This document shows positions 2,191 to 59,210 of a DNA stretch of 64,000 bases, piece by piece (within the stretch, counting starts at the first letter, position 1; each line of letters opens with the position of its first letter). Source of the DNA: Pulveribacter suum. GTDB lineage: Bacteria > Pseudomonadota > Gammaproteobacteria > Burkholderiales > Burkholderiaceae_C. The notes beneath the pieces were generated by a model, which was not told where the DNA came from, searched no databases, and saw nothing but the letters and a program-made list of their open reading frames with translations. The translations under genes and the position numbers were made by a program. The stretch covers positions 1,012,501 through 1,076,500 of the forward strand of contig NZ_CP027792.1 in NCBI RefSeq assembly GCF_003013695.1. The letters are read 5' to 3'.

Positions 2191-2204
2191 AACTGAGTGC
2201 TACT

Positions 2205-2253
2205 TATTTGATAGCTGCTTGCGCTTGACCAGCAAGCGTTAGCGGCCTTTTTG
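2205..2253 (+). repeat. Family repeat copy, forward, just upstream of pyrC'
   Basis: This copy of the window's ~48-bp repeat carries TTTGATAGCTGC, GCGCTTG, CAAGCG and GGCCTTTTT in the standard order. It ends only about 10 bases before the pyrC' ATG, so it takes the place where a ribosome binding site would be expected, and no clear Shine-Dalgarno sequence is visible. Confidence 0.8.
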
Positions 2254-2263
2254 CTGATAAACC

Positions 2264-8976: not shown

Positions 8977-9010
8977 AGGTTTTCAATTAGGTTTCTGAAA
9001 AATTTGGATG

Positions 9011-9057
9011 AAAAAGGCCTCCAGCGCTTACCCCGAAAGCGCTGACAGCTATCAAAT
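9011..9057 (-). repeat. Family repeat copy, reverse orientation
   Basis: AAAAAGGCCTCCAGCGCTT is followed by AAGCGCTGACAGCTATCAAA, the reverse complement of the family repeat. It lies between the 21-bp inverted repeat and the protease gene. Confidence 0.85.
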
Positions 9058-9167
9058 ATGCAGCGGCTCATGGAGCGATCTGCCCTAAGCTTCGCTTAAG
9101 CGCCCCAGCGCACACTGCCTGCCATGGCCGCGACAAGTCCAGCGGTGCAACCCATGAAAGGCAGACC

Positions 9168-30482: not shown

Positions 30483-30533
30483 GGCGGCCAGCGTAGCACG
30501 CCCCCGAAGGGCCCACGGCCTGCGTGGACTCAC

Positions 30534-30582
30534 AATTTGATAGCTGCCAGCGCTTGACTGGCGGGCACTGGAGGCCGATTTG
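30534..30582 (+). repeat. Family repeat copy, forward
   Basis: TTTGATAGCTGCCAGCGCTTG and CACTGGAGGCCGATTTG. It ends within a few bases of the antiporter stop codon at 30586. Confidence 0.85.
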
Positions 30583-30585
30583 CCT

Positions 30586-32451
30586 TCAAGCCGCGGGCGG
30601 CTCGTCGCTGTCCTGCGGGACGCTGGCGCGCGCGGACATGCGCTCCTGGCGCTCCTTGGCCAGCTGCTCCACCAGCTGCTGGCGGCCCTGGCGGGCGACG
30701 GCCAGCATGGCCTCGCGGTCGCCCTGGTGGGCGTACATGCGCTCGGACAGGTCCACGTTGTGCGCCGTGAAGCGCTCGGCGAAGGCGGCGGCGTCGGCTG
30801 GGTTCTCGCCCATCAGCTCCAGCACCGTGCGGGCGCTCAGCACGCTGGCGCGAAACAGCTCGCGCTCGACGTGCTGCACGCCCAGGTCGCGCAGTGCGTG
30901 CCAGTGCGTCACGTCGCGCGCGCGGGCGACGATCTGCAAATGCGGGAAGTGCTTGCGCGCGGCCTGCACGATCTTGAGCGACTGCTCGGGCGCGTCCACC
31001 GCCACCACCAACACCCGCGCCTGGCCGGCGCCGGCCAGGCGCAGCAGGGACACGCGCGTGGCGTCGCCGTAGAAGACGCGGTAGCCGAAGGTGTGGGCCA
31101 CCTCCAGCATCTCCACGCTGTGGTCCAGCACCGTGGCCTTCAGCCCCTGGGCCAGCACCATGCGGGCGACGATCTGCCCGTAGCGGCCGAAGCCGGCAAT
31201 GATGATGGGCGCGCTTTGCGGCGGCTCCGACAGGGTGCGCTCGTCCGGCACCGGCGGCATGGCCGGCGGGCCCAGGCGGGCGTGGCGCAGCAGCAGCGCG
31301 CGGTCCACCGCCACCAGCAAAAGCGGCGACAGCAGCATGGACAGCGCCACCGCCCCGATCAGCAGGGAGGCCGCTTCGGTGCCGATGGCGCCGAAGCCGG
31401 CGCCGCTCTGGAAGACCACGAAGGCGAACTCGCCGCCCTGCGCCAGCACCAGCGTGAACACCGGCCGCTCCTGGTAGGGCATGCCGCTGGCGCGCGCCAG
31501 CAGCCAGATCACCACGCCCTTGACGGCCAGAAAGCCCAGCAGCAGCCCCAGCATGGCCCAGGGCGCGCGGGCCAGCACGCCGAAATCGATGCTCATGCCC
31601 ACGGCGATGAAGAACAGGCCCAGCAGCAGGCCCTTGAACGGCTCGATGTCGGTTTCCAGCTCGCGCCGGTACTCGCTGTCGGCCAGCAGCACGCCGGCCA
31701 GAAAGGCGCCCAGCGCCATCGACAGGCCCACCGACAGCATCAGCATGGCGATGCCCACCACCAGGAACAGCGAGGTGGCGGTGAAGATCTCCGGCTGCTT
31801 GCTGCGGGCGATCCAGCGCAGCACCGGGCGCAGCAGCAGCCGCCCGCCCAGCACGATGGCGCCCACCACCGCGGCGGTGCGCAGCGCCTCCAGCGCCAGG
31901 TCGCCCGCACCGTGCGGCTGGCGCGCGGCAGCGGCGCCCAGGAGGGGCAGCAGCGCCAGGATGGGAATGGCCGCCACGTCCTGGAACAGCAGGATGGAGA
32001 AGGCCTTTTGCCCGCTGTCGGTGCGCATCAGGTTGCGCTCGGCCAGCACCTGCAGCGCGATCGCCGTGGACGACAGCGCCAACCCCAGCGCCGCCACCAG
32101 CGCCACGCGCCAGGGCAAGCCCAGCGCCCAGGCGAGGGCCCACAGCACCACGGCGCAGCCGGCCATCTGCGCCAGCCCCAGACCCAGGATGGGGCGGCGC
32201 AGGCTCCACAGGCGGCTGGGCTGCAGCTCCAGCCCGACCAGGAACAGCATCAGCACCACGCCGAATTCGGCGAAGTGCAGGATGTCCTGCACGTTGCTCA
32301 CCAAGGCGAGGCCCCAGGGCCCGATGGCGATGCCGGCGGCCAGGTAGCCAATGATGGCGCCCAGCCCCAGGGCGCGGGCGATGGGCACGGCGATCACCGC
32401 CGCGGCCAGGTAGGTGAAGCCGTAGGTGAGCCAGACGGGGGCTTGGGCCAT
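30586..32451 (-). CDS. kefB: Kef-type K+/H+ antiporter with RCK domain (CPA2 family)
   Basis: The product has 621 residues. Residues 1 to about 385 form 12-13 transmembrane helices of the Na+/H+ exchanger type (motifs LAAGIAIGPWGLALV, LFFIAVGMSIDF). The C-terminal cytoplasmic RCK/TrkA-N domain begins PIIIAGFGRYGQIVARMVL with a Rossmann nucleotide site. It probably exports K+ against protons under electrophile or pH stress, as KefB/KefC do. No KefF/KefG-type ancillary gene is adjacent. I start at MAQAPVW (32451); an ATG seven codons upstream is also possible. Confidence 0.88.
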   Translation of the reverse strand: MAQAPVWLTYGFTYLAAAVIAVPIARALGLGAIIGYLAAGIAIGPWGLALVSNVQDILHFAEFGVVLMLFLVGLELQPSRLWSLRRPILGLGLAQMAGCAVVLWALAWALGLPWRVALVAALGLALSSTAIALQVLAERNLMRTDSGQKAFSILLFQDVAAIPILALLPLLGAAAARQPHGAGDLALEALRTAAVVGAIVLGGRLLLRPVLRWIARSKQPEIFTATSLFLVVGIAMLMLSVGLSMALGAFLAGVLLADSEYRRELETDIEPFKGLLLGLFFIAVGMSIDFGVLARAPWAMLGLLLGFLAVKGVVIWLLARASGMPYQERPVFTLVLAQGGEFAFVVFQSGAGFGAIGTEAASLLIGAVALSMLLSPLLLVAVDRALLLRHARLGPPAMPPVPDERTLSEPPQSAPIIIAGFGRYGQIVARMVLAQGLKATVLDHSVEMLEVAHTFGYRVFYGDATRVSLLRLAGAGQARVLVVAVDAPEQSLKIVQAARKHFPHLQIVARARDVTHWHALRDLGVQHVERELFRASVLSARTVLELMGENPADAAAFAERFTAHNVDLSERMYAHQGDREAMLAVARQGRQQLVEQLAKERQERMSARASVPQDSDEPPAA

Positions 32452-32544
32452 GGTGAAGAGGAGGGGGGACAACGCACGGCCGGACGGCCGGGGGAAATTG
32501 TGGCACCAGCCGGCACGGCCACGGGTTGCACTGGAGGTTGCTAT

Positions 32545-32595
32545 TCAAATAATAGCTGCTGGCGCTTGCGTGACAAGCGCTGGAGGCTGATTTGT
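32545..32595 (+). repeat. Family repeat copy, forward
   Basis: AATAGCTGCTGGCGCTTG and GACAAGCGCTGGAGGCTGAT. It lies in the divergent promoter region between the antiporter and lysE-type genes. Confidence 0.88.
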
Positions 32596-32702
32596 CTTGT
32601 ATTCGTTCGTGGGCCACGTGCCGCATGGCGCGCGGGCGCGCCCGTAGAATTGCGCCCTTCTTTTCCCGTCTTCCCCCTTTTTTTCTACCGGCGGCACGCA
32701 CT

Positions 32703-46384: not shown

Positions 46385-47298
46385 GTGCCGCCCCCGCACC
46401 CCCGACCGCCCCCGCCGCCCACGCCCTGCCGCCGCGGGTGGCGCAGTTCTACGCCCTGACCAAGCCGCGCGTGGTGCAGCTGATCGTGTTTTGTGCCTTC
46501 ATCGGCATGGTGCTGGCCGTGCCCGGCCTGCCCGGCGCTGCGCAGTGGGGCCAGATGGCCGTGGCCAGCGCCGGCATCTGGCTGGTGGCCGGCGCGGCAG
46601 CCGCCTTCAACTGCCTGGTGGAGCGCGGCATCGACGCGCGCATGAAGCGCACCGCCTGGCGGCCCACGGCGCGCGGCGAGCTGTCGGGCACGCAGGCGCT
46701 GGTGTTCTCGGCGCTGCTGTGCGCGGCTGGCTCGGCGCTGCTGTACTTCTTCGTCAACCCGCTGACCATGTGGCTGACGTTTGCCACCTTCGTGGGCTAC
46801 GCCGTCATCTACACCGTCATCCTCAAGCCCCTGACGCCGCAGAACATCGTGATCGGCGGCGCTTCCGGGGCCATGCCGCCGGTGCTGGGCTGGGCGGCCA
46901 TGACGGGCTACGTGGGGCCCGAGGCGCTCATCCTGTTCCTCATCATCTTCCTGTGGACGCCGCCGCACTTCTGGGCCCTGGCGCTGTACCGCGTGGAGGA
47001 CTACCGCAAGGCCGGCCTGCCCATGCTGCCCGTCACGCACGGCAATGAGTTCACCCGGCTGCAGGTCTTTCTCTATACCCTGATCCTGTTCGCCGGCTGC
47101 CTGATGCCCTTCATCTACGGCATGAGCTCGTGGATCTACCTGGTGGCCGCCATCGGCCTGGGGCTGGGCTTTTGCGCCTACGGCTTCGCGCTGTGGCGGC
47201 ACTATTCCGACCAGCTGGCGCGCAAGACCTTCCGTTTCTCCCTGATCCACCTGAGCGTGCTGTTCGCCGCGCTGCTGGTGGACCACTACGTTCTGTAA
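46381..47298 (+). CDS. ctaB: Protohaem IX farnesyltransferase (haem O synthase)
   Basis: The product has 305 residues of the UbiA prenyltransferase fold with about nine helices. It starts [20 protein letters not shown]. The Asp-rich motif [19 protein letters not shown] has the first loop Asp as Glu-Arg-x-Ile-Asp, and [26 protein letters not shown] follows. It makes haem O from haem B and farnesyl diphosphate, the substrate of CtaA. It overlaps ctaA by four bases and sco1 by one. Confidence 0.95.
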
Positions 47299-47921
47299 TG
47301 CCGATCATCAACCGCCGTTTTGCTCTTAAAAATATAGCTACCTGCGCAGTGTCCGCGGGCGCTGCAGCCGTTTTTCTTGCTGCCTGCTCGCCCAAGGGCG
47401 CAAGCTTCCAGGGGGTGGACGTCACGGGCGCCGACTACGCGCGCGACCTGCCCCTGACCGACCAGCACGGCCAGCGCCGCAGCCTGAAGGAATTCGCCGG
47501 CAAGGTGGTGGTCGTGTTCTTCGGCTACACCCAGTGCCCGGACGTGTGCCCCACCTCCATGGGCGAGCTGGCCGAGGTCAAGCGCGCCCTGGGCGCCGAC
47601 GGCGATCGCCTGCAGGGCATCTTCGTCACCGTGGACCCGGAGCGCGACACGCCCGAGGTGCTCAAGGCCTACATGGCCAGCTTCGACCCCAGCTTCATCG
47701 CCCTGCACGGCACGCCCGAAGAGCTGGCCGCCGTCGCCAAGGACTTCAAGATCTACTACAAGCGCGTGGAGGGCAGCACCCCCACCAGCTACACCATGGA
47801 CCACTCGGCCGGCAACTACGTCTATGACCCCGCCGGCCGCCTGCGCCTGTACCACCGCTACGGCAGTGGCACCCAGGCCCTGGCCGCGGACGTGCGTGCG
47901 CTGCTGGATGAAGCGCGCTGA
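47298..47921 (+). CDS. sco1: SCO1/SenC copper chaperone, lipoprotein
   Basis: The product has 207 residues. The N-terminus ends in the lipobox FLAAC with Cys30, so the mature protein should be lipid-anchored. The thioredoxin-like domain has GYTQCPDVCPTSM (Cys80, Cys84) and the copper-binding His in TMDHSAGNYVYDP. Sco1 delivers copper to CuA of CoxB. The ATG overlaps the ctaB stop (TAATG). Codons for residues 11-27 coincide with a copy of the family repeat, and they include ATA, AAA and TTT codons unlike the rest of the gene. Confidence 0.95.
   Translation: MPIINRRFALKNIATCAVSAGAAAVFLAACSPKGASFQGVDVTGADYARDLPLTDQHGQRRSLKEFAGKVVVVFFGYTQCPDVCPTSMGELAEVKRALGADGDRLQGIFVTVDPERDTPEVLKAYMASFDPSFIALHGTPEELAAVAKDFKIYYKRVEGSTPTSYTMDHSAGNYVYDPAGRLRLYHRYGSGTQALAADVRALLDEAR
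47328..47376 (+). repeat. Family repeat copy inside the sco1 signal sequence
   Basis: ATAGCTACCTGCGCAGTG...GGCGCTGCAGCCGTTTTT follows the repeat order and spacing, with one base fewer before CC than the intergenic consensus. It is read in the frame I-A-T-C-A-V-S-A-G-A-A-A-V-F-L. It is diverged; similarity is clear in the two end blocks. Confidence 0.6.
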
Positions 47922-50059: not shown

Positions 50060-50089
50060 GCGGGCGGCGCGGTGGCGGGATTTTGATAT

Positions 50090-50137
50090 AAAAAAGGCCT
50101 CCGGCCCTTGACTGTCAAGCGCTGGCAGCTATCAAAT
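50090..50137 (-). repeat. Family repeat copy, reverse
   Basis: AAAAAAGGCCTCCGGCCCTTG followed by CAAGCGCTGGCAGCTATCAA. It lies in the 188-base gap upstream of the small hypothetical gene. Confidence 0.88.
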
Positions 50138-50247
50138 TGATAGTGGGGTGACACCCGGGGCGCGTGTGGGCGCCCGCGTGCCGCCGCTGCCGGCGCCGCC
50201 GAATGACCTCGGTCACCCGGCGGGGCAGCGCGGCCGACGGCCCCGGC

Positions 50248-52397: not shown

Positions 52398-52475
52398 GGC
52401 CATAAGTTCCTGTCGTGCCGTAGGAGGGTGGCGCATGCTGGAGCTATCCTCTTTCCAGTGCATTTGTTTCAGTGC

Positions 52476-52523
52476 ATTTTTGCCTTCAACGCTTGCTGGT
52501 CAAGCGCGGGCAGCTATCAAATT
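52476..52523 (-). repeat. Family repeat copy, reverse
   Basis: TTTTTGCCTTCAACGCTTG and CAAGCGCGGGCAGCTATCAA. It lies between the CIRCE element and cutA, ending 16 bases before the cutA ATG. Confidence 0.82.
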
Positions 52524-52539
52524 TGATGAGGAGAGCCCT

Positions 52540-52882: not shown

Positions 52883-54025
52883 TCAGGCCAGCAGCGCCTG
52901 GGCGAATTCGCGGGCGCTGAAGGTTTCCAGGTCTTCCACGCGCTCGCCCACGCCGATGAAATAGACCGGGATCGGCCGCTCCTGCGCGATGGCCGCCAGC
53001 ACGCCGCCCTTGGCCGTGCCGTCCAGCTTGGTCACGATCAGGCCGGTGAGCGAGAGCGCATCGTCGAAGGCGCGCACCTGGGCCAGCGCGTTCTGGCCGG
53101 TGTTGCCGTCGATGACCAGCAGCACCTCGTGCGGCGCGCCGGCGTCGGCCTTGGCGATCACGCGGCGGATCTTTTGCAGCTCCTGCATCAGGTGCAGTTG
53201 CGTGGGCAGGCGGCCGGCGGTGTCCACCAGCACCACGTCCTTGCCGCGGGCGCGCCCGGCGCTCACGGCGTCAAAACTGACGGCGGCCGGGTCGCCCCCC
53301 TCCTGGCTGACGATCTCCACCGTATTGCGCGTGGCCCACACGCCCAGCTGCTCGCGCGCGGCGGCGCGGAAGGTGTCGGCCGCGGCCAGCAGCACGCTCT
53401 GGCCGTGGTCGGCCAGGTGGCGGGTGAGCTTGCCGATGGAGGTGGTCTTGCCCGCGCCGTTGACGCCGGCGACCATGACCACGGTGGGTGTGTGCTCGCC
53501 GATGACCAGGGGCTTTTCCAGCGGGCGCAGCAGGTCGGCCAGGGCGTCGGCCAGCAGCGCCTTGACGGCGGCGGGCTCGGTGGTCTTGGTCTCCTTCACC
53601 CGGCGCTTGAGGTCTTGCAGCAGGTGCTGGGTGGCGCGCACGCCGGTGTCGGCCATCAGCAGGGCCTCTTCCAGCTCCTCGTACAGCGCGTCATTGATCT
53701 GCGTGCCGGTGAAGACGGTGGTGATGCTGGTGCCGGTTTTCTTCAGGCCGGTCTTCAGCCGCTCCACCCAGTGCTGGCGCGCGGCGCCGGCGGGCAGGGG
53801 CTTGTCCATGGGCTCGGCCACGGCCGGCGGGGCGCTGGGGGCGCCGGTGCCAAAGGACTTGCGCAGCCAGGCCATGGCACCGGCGCTCTCCGGCGCGGCG
53901 GGTGCGGCGGGCGTAGCAAGAGCAGCGGGCGCGGGGGCCGGGACGGGTGCGGCGGCCGGGGCGGGCGGCAGGGGCGCCTCGGCAGGGATGTCGTCGGGTG
54001 TTTTTTTCTTGAAGAAGCTGAACAT
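52883..54025 (-). CDS. ftsY: Signal recognition particle receptor FtsY
   Basis: The product has 380 residues. An acidic/Pro/Ala-rich A domain (about 1-80) precedes the NG domain. GTPase motifs are VNGAGKTTSIGKL (P-loop), DTFRAAAREQL, DTAGRLPTQLHLM and TKLDGTAKGG. FtsY receives ribosome-nascent chain complexes bound by Ffh at the inner membrane. The gene is divergent from the M16 protease pair, 29 bases away. In many bacteria ftsY lies next to rsmD, and here rsmD is three genes further along. Confidence 0.96.
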   Translation of the reverse strand: MFSFFKKKTPDDIPAEAPLPPAPAAAPVPAPAPAALATPAAPAAPESAGAMAWLRKSFGTGAPSAPPAVAEPMDKPLPAGAARQHWVERLKTGLKKTGTSITTVFTGTQINDALYEELEEALLMADTGVRATQHLLQDLKRRVKETKTTEPAAVKALLADALADLLRPLEKPLVIGEHTPTVVMVAGVNGAGKTTSIGKLTRHLADHGQSVLLAAADTFRAAAREQLGVWATRNTVEIVSQEGGDPAAVSFDAVSAGRARGKDVVLVDTAGRLPTQLHLMQELQKIRRVIAKADAGAPHEVLLVIDGNTGQNALAQVRAFDDALSLTGLIVTKLDGTAKGGVLAAIAQERPIPVYFIGVGERVEDLETFSAREFAQALLA

Positions 54026-54054
54026 TGGCGGGTTCTTAGAATCGCAGCCATTCT

Positions 54055-55497
54055 ATGAAACGCGCTCTCACCCTTCTTGCCCTGCTGGCGGGCATGCACG
54101 CCCTGGCCCAGCAGCCCGCGTCCCCCGCGCCCGTTCATCCGCCGGCGTCCGAATCGGCCAAGGCCACTGGCGCGCAGCAGTTCACCTTGCAGAACGGCAT
54201 GCAGCTCATCGTGCAGCCGGACCGGCGCGCGCCTACCGCGGTGCACATGGTGTGGCTGCGTGTGGGCTCCATGGACGAGGTGGACGGCACCTCGGGCGTG
54301 GCCCACGTGCTGGAGCACATGATGTTCAAGGGTTCCAAGACGCTGCCCCCGGGCGAGTTCTCGCGCCGCGTGGCGGCCTTAGGGGGGCAGGAGAACGCCT
54401 TCACCAGCCGCGACTACACGGGCTACTACCAGCAGATCCCCGCCAGCCGGCTGCAGGACGTGATGCAGCTCGAATCCGACCGCTTCGCCCACAACCAGTG
54501 GCCGGACGAGGAGTTCAAGCGCGAGCTGGAGGTGGTCAAGGAGGAGCGCCGCATGCGCACCGACGACCAGCCGCGCGCCTCCCTCATCGAGCAGCTGTAT
54601 GCCAGCACCTTCATCGCCTCGCCCTACCGCCGCCCCGTGGTGGGCTGGATGAGCGACCTGGACGCGATGACGCCGGGCGACGCGCGCGAGTTCTACGCGC
54701 GCTGGTACGTGCCCGCCAACGCCGTCATCGTGGTGGCCGGCGACGTGGAGCCGGCCCAGGTGCTGGCCCTGGCGCAAAAGACCTACGGCGCCATTCCCGC
54801 GCGCGCCGTGCCGCCGCGCAAGCCGCGCGAGGAGCCCGAGCAAAAGGGCATGCGCCGCATCGCGTTCAAGGCGCCGGCCGACCAGGCCTACGTGGCCCTG
54901 GCCTTTCGCGTGCCCGGCCTGCAGCGGGTCAGCGAGCTGGCCGCCACCGACCGCGACGCGCTGGCGCTGATGGCGCTGTCGGCCGTGCTCAGCGGCTATG
55001 ACGGCGCGCGGCTGCAGCGCGCGCTGACGCAAGGCGCCGACCGCGTGGCCGACAACGCGGGCAGCGACGCCTCCGTCGTCGGGCGCGGGCCGTCGCTGTT
55101 CCTGCTCAGCGGCGTGCCCGCCGCCGGCAAGAGCGCGCAGGATGTGGAAGCCGCCCTGCGCGCCGAGGTGGCGCGCGTGGCGCGCGAGGGCATCAGCGCG
55201 GCCGAGCTGTCGCGCGTGACCACGCAGTGGGCGGCCGGCACCATCTACGCCCGCGACTCGCTGCAGTCCCAGGCCAGCGACCTGGGCCACAACTGGGTGC
55301 AGGGCCTGCCGCTGGACGCCGACGAGCGATTGCTGCAGCTGCTGCGCGGCGTGACGCCGGCCGAGGTGCAGTCCGTGGCCGCGCGCTACTTCGGCGACGA
55401 CCAGTTGACCGTCGCCACCCTGGTGCCCCAGCCCATGGCCGCCCGCCCCAGCAAGCCCGCCCCGGACGCCGCCGCGCCCGAAGGCCGCCTGCACTGA
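54055..55497 (+). CDS. M16-family zinc protease, catalytic subunit
   Basis: The product has 480 residues. After a short signal-like N-terminus (ALTLLALLAGMHALAQQ) the inverted zinc motif HVLEH lies at 84-88, followed by the distal Glu in LEVVKEERRMRTDD. The fold continues with FRVPGLQRV-type segments of peptidase M16 (pitrilysin, insulinase, mitochondrial processing peptidase). The protein is probably periplasmic. The following gene encodes a non-catalytic paralogue; pairs of this type form heterodimers in other bacteria. The substrate is unknown. Confidence 0.92.
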   Translation: MKRALTLLALLAGMHALAQQPASPAPVHPPASESAKATGAQQFTLQNGMQLIVQPDRRAPTAVHMVWLRVGSMDEVDGTSGVAHVLEHMMFKGSKTLPPGEFSRRVAALGGQENAFTSRDYTGYYQQIPASRLQDVMQLESDRFAHNQWPDEEFKRELEVVKEERRMRTDDQPRASLIEQLYASTFIASPYRRPVVGWMSDLDAMTPGDAREFYARWYVPANAVIVVAGDVEPAQVLALAQKTYGAIPARAVPPRKPREEPEQKGMRRIAFKAPADQAYVALAFRVPGLQRVSELAATDRDALALMALSAVLSGYDGARLQRALTQGADRVADNAGSDASVVGRGPSLFLLSGVPAAGKSAQDVEAALRAEVARVAREGISAAELSRVTTQWAAGTIYARDSLQSQASDLGHNWVQGLPLDADERLLQLLRGVTPAEVQSVAARYFGDDQLTVATLVPQPMAARPSKPAPDAAAPEGRLH

Positions 55498-55523
55498 CAC
55501 CAAAGAAGAACAAGGGCACTGCC

Positions 55524-56903
55524 ATGTCTCTCCTGAAAACTATCAAAACAATAGCTGCTCGCGCTTGCCTGGTAAGCGCTGGAGCCATTTTTTATACCCA
55601 ATCGGCCTGGGCGCTGCTGCCCATCGAGCACTGGAGCGAGCCCAGCGGCGCGCGCGTCTGGCTGGTGCAAAGCCCGGCCATTCCCATGGTGGATGTGCAG
55701 GTGGACTTCGACGCCGGCACGCGCCGCGACCCGGCCGCGCAGGCCGGCCTGGCCAGCGCCTTCGCCCTGATGAGCAGCAAGGGCGTGCTGGCCGGCGCCG
55801 CGAGCGAGCCGGCGCTGGACGAAAACGACCTGGGCGAGGCCTGGGCCGACCTGGGCGCCAGTTTTGACGCCGGGGCCGAGCGCGACGGCCTGGCGTTTTC
55901 GCTGCGCTCGCTGACCGAGGCCGACTTGCTGGAGCGCGCTGCCCGCCTGGCCGCGCGCCAGCTGGGCCAGCCCAGCCTGCCCACCGCCGTCTGGCAGCGC
56001 GAGCGCGCCCGCTGGCAGGCCAGCATCCGCGAGGCCGACACCCGCCCCGGCACCGTGGCTGGCAAGGCCTTCGGCCAGGCCGTCTTTGGCAGCCACCCCT
56101 ATGGCCAGTTCGCCACCGCGCAGACCCTCTCGGCCATCGAGGTGGCCGACCTGCAGGCCTACCAGTCGCGCTACCTGCAGGCCTGCCGCGCCCGCGTGTC
56201 CATCGTCGGCGCCGTCACCCGCGCCCAGGCGCAGGGCCTGGTGCAGACCCTGCTGTCGCGCCTGCCTGCGGGCGACGCCGCCGCCTGCGCGCCGCTGCCA
56301 CCGGTGCCCGAGGTGCAACCGCTGGCACAGCCGGTGCAGGAAGACATCCCGTTCGCCTCGGCCCAGGCGCACGTGCTCATCGGCCAGCCCGGCTTCGTGC
56401 GGCGCGACCCGGACTTCCTGGCGCTGCTGGTGGGCAACCACATCCTGGGCGGCGGGGGCTTCACCTCGCGCCTGACGAACGAGGTGCGCGAAAAGCGCGG
56501 CCTGACCTACGGCGTGTACAGCCAGTTCAGCCCCGGGCTGAACGCCGGCGCCTTCGCCATCGGCCTGCAGACACGCCCCGACCAGGCCGCCCAGGCCGTG
56601 CAGCTGACGCGGGAGGTGCTGGAGCGCTTCGTTGCCGAAGGCCCGACCGAGGCCGAGCTGCGCGCTGCCAAGGACAACCTGGTGGGCGGCTTCGCCCTGC
56701 GCATCGACAGCAACCGCAAGCTGCTGGGCAATGTGGTCAACATCGCCTGGAACGATCTGCCGCTGGACTACCTGGAATACTGGACCGACCGCGTGGAGGC
56801 GATCACCGTGGCCGACATCCGCGCCGCCATGCAGCGCAAGCTGCAGCCCGCTCGCATGGTCACCGTGATCGTCGGCGCGCAGCAGCCAGGAGCCAAGCCA
56901 TGA
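55524..56903 (+). CDS. M16-family protein, non-catalytic partner
   Basis: The product has 459 residues. It keeps the M16 fold but the HxxEH zinc motif is missing: the corresponding region reads AGLASAFALMSSKGV. It retains the substrate-side segment GGGGFTSRLTNEVREKRGLTYGVYSQF (Arg-Tyr motif), as expected from the partner of a heterodimer. Residues 1-27 form an export signal whose codons (55545-55594) are a copy of the family repeat. It starts 26 bases after the catalytic gene and overlaps rsmD by ATGA. Confidence 0.9.
   Translation: MSLLKTIKTIAARACLVSAGAIFYTQSAWALLPIEHWSEPSGARVWLVQSPAIPMVDVQVDFDAGTRRDPAAQAGLASAFALMSSKGVLAGAASEPALDENDLGEAWADLGASFDAGAERDGLAFSLRSLTEADLLERAARLAARQLGQPSLPTAVWQRERARWQASIREADTRPGTVAGKAFGQAVFGSHPYGQFATAQTLSAIEVADLQAYQSRYLQACRARVSIVGAVTRAQAQGLVQTLLSRLPAGDAAACAPLPPVPEVQPLAQPVQEDIPFASAQAHVLIGQPGFVRRDPDFLALLVGNHILGGGGFTSRLTNEVREKRGLTYGVYSQFSPGLNAGAFAIGLQTRPDQAAQAVQLTREVLERFVAEGPTEAELRAAKDNLVGGFALRIDSNRKLLGNVVNIAWNDLPLDYLEYWTDRVEAITVADIRAAMQRKLQPARMVTVIVGAQQPGAKP
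55545..55594 (+). repeat. Family repeat copy inside an M16 signal peptide
   Basis: AAAACAATAGCTGCTCGCGC, TTGCCTGGTAAGCGCTGGAG and CCATTTTTTAT reproduce the family repeat almost base for base, but with GAGCC for the usual GAGGCC (one base lost). It is read I-A-A-R-A-C-L-V-S-A-G-A-I-F-Y, in the same frame as the copy in sco1. Confidence 0.85.
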
Positions 56904-57508
56904 GCGCCGCACGCAAGAAAACCCCCGCCACTGCGCGCGTGCCCGGCCCGCCACCAGGCGAGGTGCGCATCATCGGCGGGCAGTGGAAGCGCTCCAAGCT
57001 GCCGGTGCCCGACAAGCCCGGGCTGCGCCCCACGCCCGACCGCGTACGCGAGACGCTGTTCAACTGGCTGGGCCAGGACCTGACCGGCTGGCATTGCCTG
57101 GACGCCTTTGCCGGCACGGGCGCCCTGGGGCTGGAGGCGGCCTCGCGCGGGGCCACGGCCGTGCTGCTGGTCGAGCACGACGCCGGCCTGTGCGCGGCAC
57201 TGGCCCGGGCCGCCGAGCGCCTGCGCGCCTCGGCCGTGCGGGTGCAGTGCGGCGACGGCTTGGCCGCGCTGCGCGCCGCGTCGCCAGGCAGCCTGCACCT
57301 GGTGCTGCTCGATCCGCCTTTCGGACGGACCGAGTTCTTCGCCCCGGCGCTGGAAGCCGCCGCGCGCGCCATCGCCGCGGAGGGTTTCATCTACCTGGAG
57401 GCGCCCAGCCTCTGGGGCCCGGACGCCCTGGCCGCCAGCGGGCTGGCGCTGCACCGTCATCTGCACGCAGGCGCGGTGCATGCCCACCTATTGCGTCGGG
57501 TGACCTGA
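56900..57508 (+). CDS. rsmD: 16S rRNA (guanine966-N2)-methyltransferase RsmD
   Basis: The product has 202 residues. RIIGGQWKRSKLPVPDKPGLRPTPDRVRETLFNWL is the typical N-terminus. The SAM motif is LDAFAGTGALGLEAASRG and the catalytic motif LLDPPFG (DPPF/NPPY type). It methylates G966 of 16S rRNA in the small subunit. The gene is coupled to the M16 gene by a four-base overlap. coaD follows, as in many genomes. Confidence 0.94.
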   Translation: MSAARKKTPATARVPGPPPGEVRIIGGQWKRSKLPVPDKPGLRPTPDRVRETLFNWLGQDLTGWHCLDAFAGTGALGLEAASRGATAVLLVEHDAGLCAALARAAERLRASAVRVQCGDGLAALRAASPGSLHLVLLDPPFGRTEFFAPALEAAARAIAAEGFIYLEAPSLWGPDALAASGLALHRHLHAGAVHAHLLRRVT

Positions 57509-57519
57509 CTTTCGCTATG

Positions 57520-57566
57520 CTTTTTATAGCTGTCCGCGCTGGCCAGGCAAGCGCCGGAGAGCGAAA
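57520..57566 (+). repeat. Family repeat copy, forward
   Basis: TTTTTATAGCTGTCCGCGCT and CAGGCAAGCGCCGGAGAGC. It fills the gap between rsmD and coaD. Confidence 0.8.
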
Positions 57567-57636
57567 TTGCTGTCAATCCCGCAGCCGGGCCGCATAATTC
57601 GCCGCACTCTCCGCGTAAGTAAATAAGGACTCCGCC

Positions 57637-58125
57637 ATGGCACACGTGATCGCCGTCTATCCCGGAACGTTCGATCCCATCACCCTGGGCCACGAAGACG
57701 TGGTGCGCCGCGCCGTGCAGCTGTTCGACGAGATCGTCGTGGCCGTGGCAGCCGGCCATCACAAGAAGACGCTGTTCACCCTGGAAGAGCGCATGACCAT
57801 GGTGCGCGAAGCGATGCAGCCCTTTCCCCAGGTGCGGGTGGAAAGTTTTTCCGGCCTGATGCGCGACTTCATCGTCCAGCGCGGGGCCAAGGCCATGGTG
57901 CGGGGCCTGCGGGCAGTGACCGACTTCGACTATGAGTTTCAGCTGGCCGGCATGAACCGCCACCTGATGCCCGAGGTGGAAACGGTGTTCCTCACGCCCA
58001 GCGACAAATACCAGTTCATCAGCAGCACGTTCGTGCGCGAGATTGCCTCGCTGGGGGGCGAGGTGGACAAGTTCGTTTCGTTGGAGGTGCAGCAGCGGCT
58101 GCAGGACAAGCTGCGCGGCGGCTAG
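57637..58125 (+). CDS. coaD: Phosphopantetheine adenylyltransferase
   Basis: The product has 162 residues. AVYPGTFDPITLGHEDVVRRA holds the TxGH nucleotidyltransferase signature, VRGLRAVTDFDYEFQLAGMNRHL and YQFISSTFVREIASLGG are the other conserved segments. It converts 4'-phosphopantetheine and ATP to dephospho-CoA, the penultimate step of coenzyme A synthesis. The ATG at 57637 follows AAGGACT. A strong bidirectional terminator follows the gene. Confidence 0.96.
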   Translation: MAHVIAVYPGTFDPITLGHEDVVRRAVQLFDEIVVAVAAGHHKKTLFTLEERMTMVREAMQPFPQVRVESFSGLMRDFIVQRGAKAMVRGLRAVTDFDYEFQLAGMNRHLMPEVETVFLTPSDKYQFISSTFVREIASLGGEVDKFVSLEVQQRLQDKLRGG

Positions 58126-58152
58126 GCGCAGCAGCGCTCTTGCAGCACAAAC

Positions 58153-58184
58153 AAAAAAGCCACCCGGCTACGGGTGGCTTTTTT
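58153..58184. terminator. Bidirectional terminator between coaD and the BON-domain gene
   Basis: AAAAAAGCCACCCG-GCTA-CGGGTGGCTTTTTT is a perfect 14-bp stem with A- and T-runs on both sides. It serves two convergent genes. Confidence 0.95.
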
Positions 58185-58201
58185 GTTGCAGCGGTCAGGC
58201 C

Positions 58202-58516
58202 TTACGGGCGGACCACCACGCTGTTGCGCACATCGCGGACGTGCTTGGTGTTGCGGGCGATAGCCTCGGCGCGCTCCTTTTCGGCCTGCGACTTGGCAAA
58301 GCCCGACAGCTGCACCGTGCCATTGAGCGTTTCCACGCTGATGGAGGTGGCGGCCACGTTCTTGTCTTCGGCCATCTTGGCCTTGATGGCGGTGGTGATG
58401 CCGGCGTCATCCACGTATTCACCCACGGACTGCTGCTGGCGTGCCACAGAGCAGCCAGTAGAGACGATGGTGGCGCCTGCCAGCATGGCAAAGGCAATGG
58501 CTCGTGCGTATTTCAT
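58202..58516 (-). CDS. BON-domain lipoprotein (OsmY-like)
   Basis: The product has 104 residues. The signal peptide ends in the lipobox IVSTGC, so it is probably lipid-anchored in the outer membrane. One BON domain follows: GEYVDDAGITTAIKAKMAEDKNV then VETLNGTVQLSGFAKSQAEKERAEAIARNTKHVRDVRNSVVV. BON domains bind phospholipid and occur in osmotic-stress proteins such as OsmY. AAGGAAATAACC precedes the ATG at 58516. It is the first of several minus-strand stress-type genes. Confidence 0.88.
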   Translation of the reverse strand: MKYARAIAFAMLAGATIVSTGCSVARQQQSVGEYVDDAGITTAIKAKMAEDKNVAATSISVETLNGTVQLSGFAKSQAEKERAEAIARNTKHVRDVRNSVVVRP

Positions 58517-58628
58517 GGTTATTTCCTTGACGGGTTGAAAAACAAAAACACGGGTGCGTGGAATATCCGCCTCGGCCTGTTGCACCCTCCGCTGGCCGGA
58601 CAGGGTTGGTTATGGGTTGCCGTCTCGC

Positions 58629-59210
58629 TCAGCGCTGCAGCCAGTCGCTGATCTCGTCGGCGTGTTCTTCCTCATCGGCCAAGATGCCCTCCAGCATGCG
58701 CCGGGTAGTGGGGTCCTTGTCGCCGATCAGTTCGACCATCTGCCGATACGACTCTACGGCGATGCGCTCTGCCACCAGGTTGGCATGCAGCATGTCGCGC
58801 AGATCGCTGGATTCGTCATAGTCGGCATGGCTGCGTTCCTGCAGGCTGCTGGGGCGGAAGTCAGGCGAGCCGCCCAGCTGCACGATGCGCTCGGCAATCA
58901 GGTCTGCATGGGCTGCCTCTTCGTTGGCATGCACCAGCAGCTCGTCAGCAATCGCTGGGGACTCCATGCCTTGCGCCGTGAAGTAGTGGCGCTTGTAGCG
59001 CAGCACACATACCAGTTCGGTAGCCAGCGCATCGTTGAGCAGCTTGATGATGTCTTCGCGCCATGGGCCGTAGCCGGGCGTCACGGCGCCGTCATCCAGG
59101 TTGGCCGTGGCCGCCTTGCGCAGCGCGTCTTCGTCCAGCTTCAAGGGCGTGTACTGGCCGGCAGCCGCTGGGTGGCTGCTGGTTGCGTCACTCTTGTGGG
59201 GTTTGTTCAT
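58629..59210 (-). CDS. Ferritin-like / bacterioferritin-type di-iron protein
   Basis: The product has 193 residues. Di-iron ligands appear in order: LNDALATELVCVLRYKRHYF (Glu), HANEEAAHADLIAERI (ExxH), LVAERIAVESYRQMVEL (Glu) and LADEEEHADEISDWL (ExxH). The disordered N-terminus of about 30 residues is Ala/His-rich. It probably stores iron or detoxifies peroxide, as bacterioferritin and Dps relatives do. Between BON and DUF883-like genes, it fits a stress group. The start at 59210 gives the complete fold. Confidence 0.85.
   Translation of the reverse strand: MNKPHKSDATSSHPAAAGQYTPLKLDEDALRKAATANLDDGAVTPGYGPWREDIIKLLNDALATELVCVLRYKRHYFTAQGMESPAIADELLVHANEEAAHADLIAERIVQLGGSPDFRPSSLQERSHADYDESSDLRDMLHANLVAERIAVESYRQMVELIGDKDPTTRRMLEGILADEEEHADEISDWLQR

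Follow-up and report, generated by a model that had tools for sequence, protein, structure and literature searches.

The gene of a non-catalytic M16 family protein in Pulveribacter suum (M16B, 459 aa) raises the question of whether a repeat that is dispersed over a genome can become the export signal of a conserved protein. M16B occupies positions 55524..56903 on the + strand of the window, that is, the whole 64,000-nucleotide stretch of DNA analysed here, and was recognized as an ORF with a Pfam PF05193 match of 127.3 bits and a marginal match to PF00675 (22.7 bits against a cut-off of 22.3). Its ATG follows the stop codon of a second M16 gene, M16A (54055..55497, + strand; ORF with PF00675 at 92.5 bits), by 26 bases, and the N-terminus of M16A bears, by eye, no likeness to the repeat. 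M16A contains HVLEH, which fits HxxEH, presumably the characteristic motif of the M16 family. No HxxEH was found on inspection of the M16B sequence, which together with the marginal PF00675 match agrees with the label non-catalytic given in the first-pass annotation.

Sec and lipoprotein signal peptides are characterized by a positively charged n-region, a hydrophobic core, and an A-x-A motif or lipobox. Judged by eye and from sequence only, these features are found at the N-termini of both M16B and a second protein of the window, the SCO1/SenC lipoprotein treated below. In M16B they consist of MSLLKTIKT (n-region), IAARACLVSAGAIFY (core), and the A-x-A junction between SAWA and LLP, and the 11-residue hydropathy of this stretch is 1.88. 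By its composition, the N-terminus MSLLK-TIKTIAARACLVSAGAIFYTQ-SAWA is a predicted signal peptide (MSLLKTIKTIAARACLVSAGAIFYTQSAWA; 55524..55613, + strand) that would be cleaved after AWA; apart from five residues at its start and four at its end, it is encoded by a copy of the repeat. This copy (55539..55603, + strand) supplies codons 6–26 in frame 1 of the repeat. It scores 63.8 bits against a profile of 44 other copies, from which it was itself excluded (E 2.2e-18 in the set searched, match over 62 bases), and with 77.6 bits it ranks second among the 150 copies scored by a covariance model built from the same 44 copies. The match noticed in the first-pass annotation is real but extends slightly beyond the range 55545..55594 proposed there. 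A missing base, GAGCC in place of GAGGCC, had been thought to keep one frame open in the gene. This does not hold, as no other form is as frequent as GAGCC in the repeat: in 45 aligned copies the column contains C in 24, G in 21, and no gap, and by string GAGCC occurs in 23 and GAGGC in 11 of the 45, the remainder having other forms. The unusual codons of the segment, in turn, were noted correctly. After codon 30, M16B uses ATA for none of 14 Ile, GTA for none of 33 Val, AAA for none of 7 Lys, and TTT for 3 of 15 Phe residues, and third-position GC is 0.33 in codons 6–26 vs. 0.93 elsewhere in the gene.

With its 3.36 Mb, the genome contains the 65-bp palindromic repeat at least 150 times. A DNA search of this genome gave at least 40 matches, 40 being the number scored out of 255 candidates, and an exact core pattern gave 20 matches vs. 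none for the reversed control. Fifteen of these exact matches lie on the + strand and five on the − strand. The window itself contains further copies at 2199..2263 (+, 50.1 bits), 9000..9064 (−, 46.8 bits), 30528..30592 (+, 51.3 bits), 32540..32604 (+, 55.7 bits), 50080..50144 (−, 55.6 bits), and 52465..52529 (−, 45.2 bits). At least three of the 44 model copies are intragenic (L035, L046, L047). When the genes flanking 135 copies were called by a home-made, unvalidated codon-usage procedure, with intragenic copies counted too, the setting was co-directional for 45 and 40, convergent for 35, divergent for 5, and ambiguous for 10 copies. This corresponds to the pattern of 3′-end elements and is similar to what the accessible text of a study on REP sequences reports (PMC3733652). 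Divergent gene pairs are nearly avoided in this genome, and convergent ones are frequent. Within the genus, copy number contrasts sharply among close relatives (149, 106, 9, 8, and 7 at E <= 1e-6). No description of this 65-bp repeat was found in the literature searched, which comprised mostly papers available without subscription.

The repeat consensus consists of the hairpin CCAGCGCTTG-N5-CAAGCGCTGG with CTAT...ATAGCT upstream and a T run downstream, and its GC content, taken over bases 1–55 in the 44 model copies, is 53%. The hairpin cells are paired in 83.8% of cases, compared to 26.8–46.4% for slid partners. A conserved RNA hairpin is nevertheless unsupported, because covariation was null among the model copies and weak among the gene copies (2 of 2000 shuffles as high for 67 copies, 148 of 2000 for 30 thinned ones); RNAalifold predicted just three pairs. 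An intrinsic terminator would have a stable, GC-rich hairpin with a T run directly behind it. Four of four other copies fold with z-scores of −2.4 to −4.8, the M16B copy with −1.36, and the latter was absent from a terminator scan of positions 54000–58700. In the window, L028, and L036, a single tRNA was the only Rfam match at the gathering score.

The repeat at the 5′ end of M16B persists in many genera. We compared 140 distinct M16B 5′ ends, including that of P. suum, which were left after dropping 13 duplicates and came from five genus genomes, 150 family genomes, and named genomes. The family search had given 76 orthologue-level matches (E <= 1e-130), of which 70 were used (G018, G092, G042, G129, G076, and G028 were left out), and 80 of 141 relatives were kept from the named-genome search. 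The repeat score was at least 15 bits in 70 of the 140 5′ ends, 5–15 bits in 11, and below 5 bits in 59. Sixty-nine of the 70 high-scoring 5′ ends match at the same place (L120 matches elsewhere), with L106 and L206 off by one codon. Within the genus the repeat-like peptide is kept in three of four relatives, with 47.7 bits in L010, 38.4 in L011, and only 6.6 in L012; Melaminivora alkalimesophila (L013, duplicate L184) has an unrelated, GC-rich signal peptide. Orthologues with scores near zero mostly possess other signal peptides. It had been suggested beforehand that orthologues sharing the N-terminal amino acids but encoding them by non-repeat DNA would speak against a repeat origin. Instead, where the peptide is shared, the rare repeat codons are mostly found as well. 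The core of the first-pass annotation, namely that an intergenic repeat was turned into signal-peptide sequence, stands.

Silent sites in particular have stayed close to the repeat. Among the 139 other M16B orthologues, Ile10 is ATA in 74 of 79, compared with a background of 5% ATA among Ile codons over the initial 90 codons of the mature part. Divided by repeat score, the figures are 61 of 61 for the 69 others with at least 15 bits and 13 of 18 for the 70 below 15 bits. Ala11 is GCT in 78 of 96 (64 of 65 at 15 bits or more and 14 of 31 below), again with a background of 5%. In a thinned set of 31 orthologues with less than 80% identity over 90 mature residues, the better a third codon position is conserved among the 44 model copies, the more often it agrees with the repeat (Spearman 0.65, P 0.0026, 19 positions). 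Agreement is 83% at positions conserved among these copies and 54% at variable ones; all these values are biased upwards because the 31 were picked by repeat score. In the signal peptides of the 46 orthologues scoring at most 1 bit, 13 of the 52 Ile codons are ATA and 26 of the 322 Ala codons are GCT. Part of the ATA use may thus be general to signal peptides, or the low scorers may be remnants, but given these frequencies a codon bias common to signal peptides accounts for no more than part of the retention. That rare codons such as ATA survive in orthologues with as little as about 60% protein identity is unusual, and this signature makes two forces testable, exchange with other copies of the repeat and selection acting on the element itself.

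A second gene of the window has the same arrangement. The SCO1/SenC lipoprotein gene (47298..47921, + strand; ORF with orthologues, Pfam PF02630 at 154.8 bits) has a signal peptide that matches the repeat, with a copy at 47322..47386 (+ strand; 21.9 bits, E 2.7e-5) read in the frame that M16B also uses. By eye, its parts are RRFALKN, IATCAVSAGAAAVF, and LAAC. The score of this copy is modest, and relatives reach 51.5 (G002), 35.5 (G008), and 34.2 bits (G019). Seventy-five of 92 SCO1 5′ ends could be anchored, including three that look mis-anchored but were counted (L392, L401, L406); 16 of the 75 (P. suum included) score at least 15 bits, in the same frame, and 23 reach at least 8 bits. The Ile of the KxIA motif is ATA in 22 of 25 cases. 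Seven order-level homologues (L315–L321) lack the repeat, and because they score only 0–1.6 bits, the repeat-derived signal appears to be the derived state for SCO1. Many unrelated genes with the same frame, as once proposed as a check, were not found; there is one further gene, SCO1/SenC.

What distinguishes the frame used by both genes is its hydrophobicity. Of 133 other copies, 63 have an open frame 1 on the + strand of the repeat, and in 29 of those the 11-residue hydropathy is at least 1.6; in the other five frames this value is reached by 0, 0, 1, 11, and 0 copies, which makes frame 1 the most hydrophobic of the six. A peptide-profile search of eight genomes identified M16B and SCO1 as the only clear signal peptides among the 30 loci of matches listed, and the other long open frames in this search were, by eye, antisense or upstream.

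We consider it likely, with a probability of about 0.85, that the repeat entered the 5′ end of M16B ancestrally as a Sec signal and, independently, SCO1 as a lipoprotein signal, and that both have since been inherited mostly vertically. The repeat, which has multiplied in several Comamonadaceae genomes and mostly resides at gene 3′ ends, would have landed at the 5′ end of M16B in the ancestor of the group. The frame taken would have been the one of six that provides a Lys followed by a hydrophobic stretch, T-I-K-x-I-A-A-x-A-x-L-x-S-A-G-A-x-F. An upstream ATG would have contributed the n-region and the A-x-A junction the cleavage site, resulting in the Sec signal peptide of M16B, and the same event in SCO1/SenC would have produced a lipoprotein signal. 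From then on the coding copies would have been passed on mainly by vertical descent, with local loss or replacement, and a DNA/RNA constraint or exchange with other copies would have held their silent sites near the repeat consensus. In a midpoint-rooted tree of 100 M16B proteins, each of the two groups formed by the deepest split includes carriers of the repeat, and its distribution requires 13 changes vs. 31.3 in shuffles, at least six of the 13 being forced by well-supported branches. Because of these changes, a single origin at M16B has to be assumed together with many losses, and an early gain followed by local losses is the simplest reading, with multiple gains also being possible; we infer the single origin on this basis. 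On two occasions, the repeat would thereby have provided conserved genes with a working protein module, an export signal, each time in one and the same frame and across many genera.

Several other explanations have to be weighed against this scenario. Were the start of M16B mis-called, the repeat would be 5′ untranslated sequence and translation would begin downstream, as has been suggested for many repeats annotated at N-termini in the accessible text of the REP study (PMC3733652). The ATG at 55524 is our choice, as the mechanical ORF runs open farther upstream into M16A. The next in-frame starts, however, are a GTG at residue 48 and an ATG at residue 55, and a true start 3′ of the repeat, raised earlier as a possible objection, is unlikely because both fall within the M16 domain match (residues 44–193). 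Moreover, deprived of the repeat-coded segment, M16B has no signal-like sequence ahead of the junction of A-W-A with LLPIEHW, SCO1 does not begin signal-like either, and the register is constant in most orthologues, which renders a mis-called start very improbable. That the likeness between a conserved signal peptide and the repeat is convergent, both being rich in Ala and Ile, could be argued from the low complexity of signal peptides and the hydrophobic frame, but the match exists at the DNA level over 62 bases and includes the rare repeat codons that have been kept, and such convergence is hardly credible. The direction of transfer might also be the reverse, the repeat family having been founded by intergenic copies of the sequence that encodes the M16B signal peptide. 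The M16B copy is nearer to the consensus than nearly all others, as expressed by its rank, and M16B occurs widely within the family of bacteria. On the other hand, the unrelated SCO1 contains the repeat in the same frame while its seven order-level relatives lack it, the palindrome exceeds what a signal peptide needs, as the pairing values illustrate, and CobN and PutA carry the repeat in other frames. We therefore regard this reverse origin as improbable.

Ancestral capture followed by mostly vertical descent leaves two possibilities for the force that maintains the DNA sequence, a DNA/RNA constraint on the element or exchange with other copies. A constraint may be at work, but covariation in the hairpin is null or weak. 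Repeated re-insertion or gene conversion, which would renew the coding copies in each lineage, overlaps with the preferred scenario. In three of five genomes the M16B copy scores best against the repeats of its own genome (most clearly in G124, 50.6 vs. 25.9–42.8 bits), but in the other two this is not the case, and these samples comprise 7–8 copies each, which in four genomes were the best matches to the own-genome model. The M16B repeat score also correlates with the copy number in the genome (Spearman 0.75 for 38 of 80 genomes, uncorrected for phylogeny), being at least 15 bits in 9 of 10 genomes with four or more copies vs. 6 of 28 with fewer; the values behind this correlation were entered by hand, and the copy counts among them were obtained under stricter filters and go up to 65, the top value meaning at least 65. 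A strict link is disfavoured because G004 retains 38.4 bits in M16B with only nine copies. Shared ancestry alone can yield both patterns, the register is identical in all but two of 69 M16B copies, and the PutA copies of three genus members share place and orientation, as descent would give. Renewal in each lineage is on balance unlikely, albeit far from negligible. A broader proposal, that the repeat is a ready-made signal cassette captured by several unrelated genes whose coding and intergenic copies evolve in concert, strikes us as rather doubtful. If true, the export signals of conserved proteins would be tied at the DNA level to a selfish repeat family.

The first-pass annotation knew of no described case of this kind, but a printed precedent exists in the Yersinia YPAL/RU-2 fusion YPO1552, in which the translated repeat forms part of a predicted signal peptide (Delihas, 2007; reviewed in PMC2229807). 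As far as the accessible text of these sources goes, both systems involve a short palindromic repeat that is fused in frame and whose hydrophobic translation lies in a predicted signal peptide. The Yersinia case, however, concerns a putative exported protein of 144 aa that is conserved in two Yersinia species and has a signal formed in part by the element, whereas in the present case two conserved families owe almost their entire signal to the repeat, in many genera and with silent-site retention. Rickettsia palindromic elements (RPE) are, according to the available part of a review (PMC10969869), palindromic repeats located in frame within many unrelated conserved genes, to which the in-frame insertions into the conserved protein genes PutA and CobN are comparable. 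RPE are about 150 bp long and occur in Rickettsia, compared with 65 bp in Comamonadaceae, and are thus set apart by their description rather than by sequence; the term signal peptide is absent from the main text of that review. The REP sequences with GTAG or CGTC tags are likewise palindromic, high in copy number, mostly found between co-directional or convergent genes, and in some cases intragenic (PMC3733652, accessible text), all of which is similar to the 65-bp repeat. The tag of GTAG-tagged REP is missing from most copies here, since 38 of 45 have A and only 5 have G at the position of its first base, and the main text of that paper does not name Acidovorax, Delftia, Polaromonas, Rhodoferax, or Comamonas. 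BRE, a repeat of Betaproteobacteria including Comamonadaceae of which some copies lie within coding sequences, as in our case, is about 90 bp long and in Bordetella has 69% GC and at most 29 copies per genome (PMC3110155, accessible text). It differs by description, and not by a comparison of sequences, from the present repeat with its 65 bp, about 53% GC, and at least 150 copies. Since the available text of PMC2229807 and PMC10969869 reports the Yersinia fusion and the in-frame RPE, respectively, both repeat-derived signal peptides and in-frame palindromic elements are already known in kind. New, as far as the literature searched extends, is that nearly the whole signal is repeat-derived in two conserved families, with a shared frame, across many genera, and with retention of silent sites.

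Further copies of the repeat are located within coding sequences of the P. suum genome (G000). PutA contains an in-frame copy (L173:901-965; G000:C1:2411949-2412013, − strand) between its two enzyme domains, where it has extra residues compared to solved homologues. Weaker traces of the repeat occupy the corresponding place in G002 (19.2 bits) and G003 (9.4 bits) and share its orientation, and G001 has none there, suggesting an insertion shared within the genus. The in-frame copy in CobN (L150:901-965; G000:C1:1191951-1192015, − strand) is an insertion relative to solved CobN. In a FAD-dependent oxidoreductase (PF01266; L047:996-1060, G000:C1:2230235-2230299) the repeat is read on the opposite strand, and the solved homologue has the repeat-covered segment at about equal length. 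CysN has a frame-1 copy (L035:1001-1065; G000:C1:2579177-2579241, + strand) in an N-terminal extension ahead of the GTPase domain, which is probably an in-frame copy, although a TTG inside the repeat could be the start instead. Finally, an outer-membrane efflux lipoprotein (PF02321; L046, G000:C1:2278320-2278384, − strand), which we take to be NodT-like, has its ATG two codons upstream of the repeat; in this one sequence the repeat probably forms the n-region of the lipoprotein signal, before the hydrophobic core and in another frame.
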